A stretch of DNA of 64,000 bases, from NCBI GenBank assembly GCA_028702695.1, contig JAQVOH010000005.1:1-64000 (forward strand). The letters are read 5' to 3'. Position numbers and translations under genes: made by a program. This DNA is from Desulfotomaculaceae bacterium. GTDB lineage: Bacteria > Bacillota > Desulfotomaculia > Desulfotomaculales > Pelotomaculaceae. Below the pieces are notes generated by a model. The model was not told the origin of the DNA. It saw nothing but the letters and a program-made list of their open reading frames with translations, and ran no database searches. Positions 18,986 to 28,485 of this stretch are shown piece after piece (position 1 is the first letter of the stretch; the number at the start of each line of letters is the position of its first letter).

Positions 18986-19071
18986 TTTATCCAATTTCAA
19001 AATTTCTATTTCTGTGGTGGTAGAGTCCCCCACCGAAGCCTCGATGTCCAGCTTTAGCTGGACGAGTTCAC
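18986..19071 (-). repeat. three-hairpin dispersed repeat, copy D (partly degraded)
   Basis: Minus strand GTGAACTCGTCCAGCTAAAGCTGGACATCGAGGCTTCGGTGGGGGACTCTACCACCACAGAAATAGAAATTTTGAAATTGGATAAA; hairpin 3 lost. Confidence 0.82.
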
Positions 19072-19799
19072 TCCATACGGTGGATTTCCTTTTTAAGTCT
19101 ATTGATGATCCTTTTCTCCAATCTTGAAATATATGACTGGGAGATACCCAGCATATCGGCTACCTCTTTTTGCGTTTTTTCCATCCCGTTGTTCAATCCA
19201 AACCTCAGTTCCATAATTTTACGTTCACGGGCGTTTAGCTTTTGGAGTGCAAGGTGCAAAAGCTTTTTGTCGACCTCGTCCTCAATGTATTTATATATAA
19301 CATCATTTTCAGTACCCAAAACATCTGACAGGAGGAGTTCATTACCGTCCCAGTCTATGTTCAGTGGCTCATCAAAGGACACCTCGGCACGGGTCTTGTT
19401 GTTCCTTCTCAAGTACATCAAGATCTCATTTTCTATGCAGCGGGAAGCATAGGTTGCCAGTTTGATCTTTTTGGCCGGGTCAAAGGTATTTACTGCTTTA
19501 ATCAAACCGATGGTTCCGATAGAGACCAGGTCTTCGATGCCTACACCGGTGTTTTCAAATTTGCGGGCTATATAAACCACCAGACGCAGGTTCCTTTCTA
19601 TTAGTATGCTCCTGACAGCCCCGTCGCCTGACTCCAGCCGGTTGATCAAGAAGGATTCCTCGTCGGTGGTTAAAGGCGGAGGCAGTGCTTCACTGCTCCC
19701 GACATAAAAAACCCTGGGGTGGTAGCCGAGCCTGACTAACAGTCGGAGCACAGCCAGGTAAGCAAGCCACCTCATGCGGCCAAAGTACCCTAAAGACAA
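19068..19799 (-). CDS. sigE: RNA polymerase sporulation sigma factor SigE
   Basis: [18 protein letters not shown]-type N-terminus, [65 protein letters not shown]; next to spoIIGA. Confidence 0.97.
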
Positions 19800-25121: not shown

Positions 25122-25844
25122 CTAGGCTGCAGCTTTGGCAAATTCAAACTTTGTCCCACCGCTGTATGGCGGGACTATGACCTGTGGCACTTTTTTAACC
25201 GTAACCTGAATCCCCCAAAATTGGAGCGTTTCAGCAACCCCGCCCTTCATCTTCAAGGAACTCTCCAGGGTATCGGGATTACCAATGGCTGTAATCACGT
25301 AAGGGGGCGCCAGACGCTTGTTTTTATTGAGCAGGACGGTAGGACCCGTACAGCGGACCTCAGTTGTGGCCAAAAGCCTCTGGCCGTTCATGGAAATAGC
25401 CTCCGCTCCGGCTGCACGGAGTTCGTTGAGTACCCGTAAAACATCTTCATCATGGAGTACATACAGGTTGGGGTCCTGTCCTGGTTTTAAACTGACAATA
25501 CTGTCGTTTAAGGTAACCTCCACCCCTGGGCCGGTTAATTCAGTAACCCCGGCCTCAATCCTGGCCCGGTCCAGTTCTTCCATGATCTCAGCGGTCTGCG
25601 GCAGGGACATGGCTTTATCCAGCTCGGCGCGCAGGCTCCCAACCTGTCCCTGAAGAGCCTCCCTCTCAGACTTAACCTGATTTACCTGGGCAGCAAGAGT
25701 TTTTGCTCTTTGAACAGGCTCGGTGCTTTGTATTTCCAGAGTCACCCGAAACTGTACAGCTAACAATATCCCCAGGACAAGCCCAACCGCCACAAGAGCC
25801 AAATGGAAGGTCTTCAGACTAAATCGCCCCCTTATGTATATCAT
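25122..25844 (-). CDS. DUF881 family protein (second paralogue)
   Basis: LRAAGAEAISMNGQRLLATTEVRCTGPTVLLN...YVITAIGNPDTLESSLKMKGG; likely start MIYIRGRF. Confidence 0.9.
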   Translation of the reverse strand: MIYIRGRFSLKTFHLALVAVGLVLGILLAVQFRVTLEIQSTEPVQRAKTLAAQVNQVKSEREALQGQVGSLRAELDKAMSLPQTAEIMEELDRARIEAGVTELTGPGVEVTLNDSIVSLKPGQDPNLYVLHDEDVLRVLNELRAAGAEAISMNGQRLLATTEVRCTGPTVLLNKNKRLAPPYVITAIGNPDTLESSLKMKGGVAETLQFWGIQVTVKKVPQVIVPPYSGGTKFEFAKAAA

Positions 25845-26583
25845 AAAAGACCACTGGGTTATCGGCACATGACAGGTCAATATAGTAAATTTTATCCTTC
25901 TGAGCGCTCAGTTCCTTTAATAGCTGGCTGAAGATGTCCCCCTTTTTCTGGATATCTTCGGCCAGGCCAAACCGGCACTGAATACCTTCAATTGTATAGA
26001 GTCTTATTTGTCCGTCATTGTCAACATGGACCTCGGAGAGATCCGCCACGGTCTCACTGGATAGATTGCTGATTACAGTCAGGGCATCTCCTAACCTCAC
26101 GTCCTTGACCACCTCTCCCGGGCTGGGGAGGTTAAGATTAATGCCAGTCACGACCGGCAGTCCCGGTGCTCCGGCGTTGGCCTTCTGCAGATAGACACCC
26201 TCACCGTCCACCTCAATAAAACCTTCCCCGGTAGGCAGTAGGCCTACTGGTTTGCGCTCTGTTACCCCTATCACCACCGTCGACGGTAGTGACCTGGTCA
26301 CCTGTACATCCTTGACCATGGGAATAAGTTTAAGCCTGGTGGCCGCCGCCGCAAGGTCAACTTTAAATATATTGGCACCGGGGGCAATATCGCTGACATA
26401 CTTTATTTTACCCTGGTCAAGAAGCTGGTTTCCTTGCACCAAGATACTGCGCACCTCAAAAAAAGGAGAACGCATCAAAATAAAACCCGTAATTAATACC
26501 AGAAAAATAAAAAAAACACTTTCAAAAATGTTCCAACTACGCTGCCGCCTGGGTCCTATTGCACTTCCTGACACAACTTTCAC
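25819..26583 (-). CDS. ftsQ: cell division protein FtsQ/DivIB (POTRA)
   Basis: FILMRSPFFEVRSILVQGNQLLDQGKIKYVSDIAPGANIFKVDLAAAATRLKLIPMVKDVQVTRSLPSTVVIGVTERKPVGLL. Confidence 0.93.
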   Translation of the reverse strand: MKVVSGSAIGPRRQRSWNIFESVFFIFLVLITGFILMRSPFFEVRSILVQGNQLLDQGKIKYVSDIAPGANIFKVDLAAAATRLKLIPMVKDVQVTRSLPSTVVIGVTERKPVGLLPTGEGFIEVDGEGVYLQKANAGAPGLPVVTGINLNLPSPGEVVKDVRLGDALTVISNLSSETVADLSEVHVDNDGQIRLYTIEGIQCRFGLAEDIQKKGDIFSQLLKELSAQKDKIYYIDLSCADNPVVFYDIHKGAI

Positions 26584-26758
26584 ACTTTCACACTTGTAGG
26601 ATAAGTCTACTTATATGTAATTATACCAATCGAATTAAACTTGTCCAGAAAGATTCTAAGAAAAGAAATATCCTGAAAATAATGAATTCAAAATGCAGTA
26701 ACCTTTTACTGGGTTTCTTCATAGCATATGGTAGCACTTGTGGAAGGGAGGCTTTGAA

Positions 26759-26860
26759 ATGGCAGACGGGGCGGGCTTCGGCAACTGGGGGTTTATTATC
26801 TTCCTGATTTTCATACTATTAATTTTTGGCGTCGGCTTCTGTGGAGGAGGCTGTATCTAG
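26759..26860 (+). CDS. YjcZ-like small hydrophobic peptide, 33 aa (not in ORF track)
   Basis: MADGAGFGNWGFIIFLIFILLIFGVGFCGGGCI*; RBS gggagg; near-duplicate of the next ORF. Confidence 0.75.
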   Translation: MADGAGFGNWGFIIFLIFILLIFGVGFCGGGCI

Positions 26861-26936
26861 GTACTGTTACCAGGATAAGCTTAGCGATAAGCTGCGATTA
26901 TGTTAATCTACCGGATATTGAATGGAGGTAACTAAT

Positions 26937-27074
26937 ATGGCGTTTGGAGCTGCTAGCGGCGGCTGTGGTACCGGTACTGGTACTACTGGTTTTGGCAACT
27001 GGGGTTTTATTATCTTCCTGATTTTCATCCTGTTAATTTTTGGGGTGGGCTTCTTCGGAGGAGGATGTATCTAA
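26937..27074 (+). CDS. YjcZ-like small hydrophobic peptide, 45 aa (not in ORF track)
   Basis: MAFGAASGGCGTGTGTTGFGNWGFIIFLIFILLIFGVGFFGGGCI*; RBS ggaggt; shares FGNWGFIIFLIFILLIFGVGF with the preceding ORF. Confidence 0.78.
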   Translation: MAFGAASGGCGTGTGTTGFGNWGFIIFLIFILLIFGVGFFGGGCI

Positions 27075-27119
27075 ATACTCTTGATATTCGGAGTAGGGTT
27101 CTTGGGTGGTTTTATTTAG
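27075..27119 (+). pseudogene. in-frame third tail ILLIFGVGFLGGFI* directly after the second peptide's stop
   Basis: Codons after TAA 27072-27074 read ata ctc ttg ata ttc gga gta ggg ttc ttg ggt ggt ttt att tag. Confidence 0.7.
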
Positions 27120-27138: not shown

Positions 27139-27170
27139 AGGAAGGCCGCCCCAGGCGGCTTTCTGTTTTT
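27139..27170 (+). terminator. terminator after YjcZ-like peptides
   Basis: gaaggccgccccaggcggctttctgttttt hairpin plus T-rich tract. Confidence 0.7.
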
Positions 27171-27225: not shown

Positions 27226-28485
27226 CTAGTTGTGAACTCTAATAATTCTGGCCCCGATAGCGTTGTATTTTACCTCTAGCCGCTCGTAACCCCGGTCAAT
27301 ATGCGCCACGTTTTCGATGACGGTACCGTCCTCGGCTGCCAGGGCTGCCAGGACCAACGCTGCTCCGGCTCTCAGGTCACTCGCTTCAATGTAGGCGCCG
27401 CTTAGCCTTTCTACACCCTTGACAATAGCCGATTGTCCTTCGACTTTGACGTCGGCTCCCATGCGCCTCATCTCGCCGACATGTTTGAAGCGGTTTTCAA
27501 AAATGGTTTCGGTGATGATGCTGGTACCTTCCGCCAGGCTGAGCAAGGCCATCATCTGGGGCTGCATGTCGGTCGGGAAACCAGGGTAGTGCATGGTTTT
27601 GATATCGACTGCCTTAATCTTTCCGTTTCCCTGCACCTTGATCTGGTCATTACCCACGGTAAAACTGACATTTGCCTCTTTAAGCTTTGCCAGCAATGGT
27701 TCCAGGTGTTCCGGAATGACATTCGTGACCGTAACGTCACCTTCCGTTATGGCTGCGGCTACCAGATGGGTCCCGGCCTCAATCCGGTCGGGTATGACCG
27801 TATGCTCCACCGGTTTCAAATCACATTGTGATACTCCCTCTATTTTTATGGTATCGGTGCCGGCTCCAATGACCCTGGCCCCCATCTTGTTTAAAAAATT
27901 TTGCAGGTCCACTATTTCCGGTTCTTTGGCCGCGTTCCTGATCATGGTCACCCCCTCTGCCAGAACTGCCGCCATCAATATATTCTCCGTTGCGCCAACA
28001 CTGGGAAGGTCAAGATGAATGTCGGCGCCCCTCAGCCGCTCTGCCTCTGCCGTGATATAACCGGACCTTTCTTGAATTTTGGCCCCTAGCTCCTTTAAAC
28101 CCTTAAGGTGCAGGTTCATCGGGCGGCTACCGATCTGGCAACCCCCAGGGTAGGATGTCCTGACCCGGCCGAATCTTCCCAAAAGCGCCCCTATCACCAA
28201 GTTGGAAGCCCGCATCCGCCGCATTAAGTCTTCAGATATTTCAACTGATTGGATACCAAAGGTGTCTACTTCGATCGTATTGCGGTCATTGTCTACTTTT
28301 GCCCCAAGGTAAGTAAGCAAGTTCTGCATCACTGCCACGTCCCTGAGCCTGGGGGCCTCATGGATAATACTTTTCCCGGCATTAAGGATACATGCTGCCA
28401 GCAACGGCAACGTTGCGTTCTTGGAACCACTGGTGCGGATAGTACCCTTCAGGCGGTTGCCACCAACAATCATAAATTTCTGCAC
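27226..28485 (-). CDS. murA: UDP-N-acetylglucosamine 1-carboxyvinyltransferase
   Basis: [34 protein letters not shown]...[24 protein letters not shown]...[16 protein letters not shown]. Confidence 0.97.

Follow-up and report, generated by a model that had tools for sequence, protein, structure and literature searches.

A probable recombination scar in a conserved two-gene array of small hydrophobic peptides between ftsQ and murA

Sporulation proteins of the YjcZ family (PF09680, TIGR01732), such as YjcZ of Bacillus subtilis, are tiny, with a Gly-rich N-terminus and a single hydrophobic C-terminal stretch that contains FILLI, and occur in several copies per genome; B. subtilis yjcZ belongs to the sigma-K regulon (PMC517825). 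Sigma-K promoters of C. difficile carry AC at −35 and a −10 element close to that of sigma-E, as in CATATAAT (PMC3789822). Where tandem paralogues exchange sequence, by gene conversion or unequal recombination, the outcome is a mosaic gene with a core of the paralogue's type and a tail duplicated at homologous positions. The locus described here shares features with both systems. It lies in a 64,000-nt stretch of DNA (the window) on contig C170 of a Desulfotomaculaceae assembly of 3.0 Mb in 186 contigs, which groups with Pelotomaculum by its MurA relatives.

Layout and conservation of the ftsQ–murA array

The first-pass annotation reported two open reading frames of 33 and 45 aa, each preceded by a ribosome-binding site (RBS) and sharing a peptide, in an array on the plus strand between ftsQ and murA, and a third copy of the C-terminal motif in frame after the second TAA. 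All of these features were recovered as described, with coordinates that agree. The locus is made up as follows, in coordinates of the window:

25819–26583, − strand: ftsQ
26620–26647, − strand: sigma-A-type ftsQ promoter, TGGACA-16-TATAAT with an extended −10 and 11/12 consensus matches, divergent from the array
26701–26728, + strand: candidate sigma-K-type promoter, ACC...CATAGCATA, with AC, a 17-nt spacer and CATAnnnTA, beginning 58 nt 5′ of gene 1
26759–26860, + strand: gene 1, encoding the 33-aa hydrophobic peptide MADGAGFGNWGFIIFLIFILLIFGVGFCGGGCI; RBS GGGAGG at 26746
26937–27074, + strand: gene 2, encoding the 45-aa peptide MAFGAASGGCGTGTGTTGFGNWGFIIFLIFILLIFGVGFFGGGCI; RBS GGAGGT at 26924
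27033–27080, + strand: net insertion of 48 nt, of gene-1 type, which spans the present C-terminus of gene 2, the TAA and a further 6 nt resembling the 3′ flank of gene 1
27075–27119, + strand: post-stop tail ILLIFGVGFLGGFI-TAG, in frame and 3′ of the TAA, very probably the displaced ancestral C-terminus of gene 2
27140–27164, + strand: predicted intrinsic terminator of the array, an 11-pair stem followed by a T run, facing the convergent murA
27226–28485, − strand: murA

The peptides encoded by the two genes are hydrophobic and near-identical, and the genes form a direct repeat of 95 nt with 86% identity that extends 8 nt beyond the stop codons. To compare the locus with its relatives, the ftsQ–murA intergenic region of the window was aligned with those of two genomes of the same genus, G001 and G002. 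The locus has the same layout in both, with ftsQ and murA flanking gene 1 and gene 2, which follow ftsQ in that order and lie on the other strand. The terminator is conserved in the two genomes, and the sequence around the ftsQ promoter is nearly identical in the relatives. Gene 1 differs from its orthologues in G001 and G002 by 9 and 6 synonymous codons, respectively, versus 2 and 2 amino acids. In G002 (locus L037, contig G002:C2), gene 1 has ATA at its start position and no in-frame ATG, GTG or TTG upstream; this is either an unusual start or a sign that the gene has been silenced.

The location had been regarded as unusual, a view that a wider survey did not support: arrays of this kind are found in this intergenic region throughout the Pelotomaculum group. 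Among 80 MurA loci collected by name, 10 loci of the Pelotomaculum group have one to three family members adjoining murA on its ftsQ side, and every family gene at these loci is antisense to murA, as to ftsQ. In one of the 10 the contig ends before ftsQ, and another (L100) is the same contig as that of G001. Family members occupy the ftsQ–murA gap in G012 (L071) as well as in the same-genus G002 (L037), and more distant relatives among the MurA loci have none there. The location is a conserved feature of the group and therefore no accident of this genome. Lateral acquisition of the array was also considered, but is not supported in view of this conservation within the group.

The peptide family and its likeness to YjcZ

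A search with gene 2 of 60 related genomes found similar peptides in 46 at a loose cut-off (E ≤ 1), often in many copies per genome. The family is a dispersed, multi-copy set of hydrophobic peptides of about 33–50 residues in Pelotomaculum and related bacteria of the Desulfotomaculum group. No Pfam or NCBIfam model captured it. One family member, L048 (G013:C15:59269-59397), carries TAG where the GNW motif has its Trp codon, and a Pro in the core, and is probably a decayed copy.

The earlier description of the peptides as YjcZ-like held in part. Size and composition are shared with YjcZ, as are the Gly-rich N-terminus, the single C-terminal hydrophobic stretch with FILLI and the multiple copies per genome, and regulation by sigma-K probably is too; the cores differ, being FALxVVLFILLIIVGAAx in YjcZ and FGNWGFIIFLIFILLIFGVGF in the present family. 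Neither of the two peptides nor any of 20 family members gave an hmmscan match to the YjcZ models PF09680 and TIGR01732, and whole-genome searches with the two models gave no match at the locus and none over the cut-off in the genome. Membership of the YjcZ family as defined by these curated models was accordingly rejected, the cut-off not being reached. Profile comparison by hhalign with six true YjcZ proteins (genome G196) yielded a score of 20.3, which lies within the composition-preserving null (15.1 ± 3.7 for 60 column-shuffled controls, maximum 23.1). An AC-CATA-like arrangement is present upstream of four of the six true YjcZ genes. A further set, the TSTGAILVLFILLVIIT peptides of G081 and G124, resembles the family in size and layout and produces sub-threshold PF09680 hits, but has another core and scores weakly against the family profile. 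The present family, with the sigma-K-type promoter of its genes, suggests that the distribution of YjcZ-like peptides may reach far outside Bacilli.

Origin of the tail behind the gene 2 stop codon

Against G001 and G002, gene 2 of the window has one 48-nt insertion (27033–27080), the sole insertion in the gene that is shared against both relatives, and the sequence is collinear on either side of it. When 13 loci from three same-genus genomes were scanned, the insert with its flank was closest to gene 1, at 40/48 positions for the copy in the window, 39/48 for that of G002 and 38/48 for that of G001, and none of the 13 offered a closer match. The resemblance to gene 1 includes the GGGCI ending, the stop and the 3′ flank. 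Codon comparison and diagnostic sites together show that gene 2 is chimeric: its N-terminus is its own, and its core, its C-terminus and its TAA (27072–27074) are of gene-1 type. At nine diagnostic sites in the core, six have the gene-1 state, one (the 5′-most) has the gene-2 state and two have neither; in the post-stop tail, four of five have the gene-2 state. The paralogue-specific sites change state at switch points that lie in shared sequence. The core differs from that of gene 1 by seven synonymous and no amino-acid codon changes, so that the chimeric gene seems to have been maintained in a coding state.

The tail behind the stop matches the orthologous gene 2 ends at 39/45 nt in G001 and 39/45 nt in G002, stop included, and is therefore not a chance motif. 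The AA.TCTAAA of the 3′ UTR that follows it is the same as that after gene 2 of the relatives. Over ILLIFGVGF, it agrees with the orthologous gene 2 codons at 24/27 nt, as opposed to 19–20/27 nt with the window's own two tails. Except for its first 6 nt, which fall in the junction and whose source could be either gene, the tail lies outside the extra DNA. The idea that a post-stop tail might be conserved in homologous loci did not survive the comparison, as it is absent from both same-genus orthologues and, among 113 distinct family members, a motif copy directly after the stop occurs in gene 2 of the window only; the single other post-stop match proved to be a normal following gene that has a start of its own.

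We conclude, with considerable confidence, that the third tail is the old C-terminus of gene 2 itself, displaced behind an imported stop as the scar of an ectopic recombination. In an ancestor of this genome, gene 2 would have recombined with a gene-1-type copy, the donor being its own gene 1 long ago or else a lost or foreign gene-1 copy. The exchange would have replaced the core and the C-terminus together with the stop codon and a few bases beyond it, returning to gene 2 where the gene 1 3′ flank TACTGTT resembles Ile-Leu-Leu codons. The net outcome would be a gain of 48 nt, with the old ending left behind the new stop, and in frame because the 3′ junction lies at this resemblance. Set beside ordinary recombination between paralogues, the in-frame remnant after an imported stop is the sole oddity. 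The divergence of the insert from its donor and that of the tail imply different ages for the event. Among the gene-2-type copies at G001:C72, G001:C171 and G002:C2, the core DNA (ATCTTCATCCTGCTGATATTCGGAGTAGGGTTC) is almost identical, silent sites included, and this suggests that gene conversion is still going on between copies at scattered loci.

The first-pass annotation offered two explanations, a scar of tandem duplication or a stop-codon read-through extension. The scar stands, on the evidence of the 48-nt insertion, but not as the product of tandem duplication in its simple form. If gene 2 had duplicated its own C-terminal end, two consecutive copies of the motif in one frame would result; this is nevertheless very unlikely, given that codons, GGGCI ending and 3′ flank all mark the first copy as gene-1 type and that the two tails match at only 19/27 nt. 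What very probably took place was the replacement of the core, tail, stop and a few 3′ bases of gene 2 by a gene-1-type segment.

Leaky or programmed read-through of the TAA at 27072 would yield a 60-residue, double-tailed peptide, and the frame and peptide motif are indeed intact. In addition, the tail carries 2 window-specific changes in 39 nt, below the neutral expectation of about 7 since the split (P = 0.018), which is based on a four-fold-site divergence of 18% in ftsQ, murA and the DUF881-like gene. Because this divergence is unusually low, read-through retains a small chance. However, the arrangement is found in no relative, which leaves the tail unconserved, the stop is a TAA inside the gene-1-type segment, the frame follows from the junction homology, no Rfam element lies at the junction, and a tail that remained coding up to the insertion would be conserved in any case. 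Its low divergence is thus no proof of present use by itself, and coding for most of the time since the split is the most likely cause. We therefore regard it as highly improbable that the double-tailed product is made, and equally so that selection keeps the displaced tail open through occasional read-through; the tail is most likely untranslated. A regulatory RNA at the junction was a further candidate and was dropped for want of any Rfam match. Misjoining of reads from two similar genes or strains in this metagenome-assembled genome is scarcely credible, for all that the assembly consists of 186 contigs and that the two genes share a 95-nt repeat of 86% identity, because the insert copies neither gene (it differs from gene 1 of the window at 8/48 nt, with nothing closer in the 13 loci) and the flanks are collinear with those of the relatives.

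The array promoter and sigK

Upstream regions were searched for the motif AC, 14–18 nt, CATAnnnT[A/G]. It precedes 49 of 75 first array genes versus 1 of 32 downstream genes (Fisher P = 4e-10), against a background of 4.6% upstream of long open reading frames and 2.0% in random windows (further Fisher P = 7e-39), both tests being made on related genes that are not independent. The spacer is 17 nt in 43 of the 49 cases, and the motif is mostly positioned 50–70 nt before the start. The window's copy of the motif, ACCTTTTACTGGGTTTCTTCATAGCATA at 26701–26728, has an aligned counterpart in each of the two same-genus relatives.

On the basis of this motif, the array is probably a late mother-cell spore-peptide operon. 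Its two genes encode small hydrophobic peptides that are rich in Gly, contain Cys and belong to a family that is multi-copy in Pelotomaculum and its relatives. The sigma-K-type promoter would drive their transcription in the mother cell at a late stage of sporulation, and the array's own terminator would end it before murA. The peptides would most likely act in the late mother cell, either at the outer forespore membrane or in the coat. There is nothing out of the ordinary in the scar; of more use is the uncatalogued family with its sharp sigma-K-type promoter, as family and promoter together name peptides that are likely to belong to the spore envelope of syntrophic anaerobes and can be tested as such. 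A search for literature on Pelotomaculum spore peptides or sigK returned nothing usable.

One finding speaks against the sigma-K reading: the assembly (G000), which is 94.6% complete, yielded neither a whole sigK nor half of one. The only strong match in the search was SigE at 19068–19799 of the window, adjoining SpoIIGA and SigG. Either sigK is missing from the assembly or it has been lost; it is whole in both same-genus relatives.

In B. subtilis, the two halves of sigK are separated by the skin element. The split sigK seen in several relatives of the present genome is a recurrent skin-like interruption: the halves lie several kb or more apart in G012 (C1:1160156-1165067) and G003 (C43:11559-16282), and sigK is likewise split in G025 (C12) and G029 (C11), and also in G033 and G034. 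In other members of the same family, sigK is whole.
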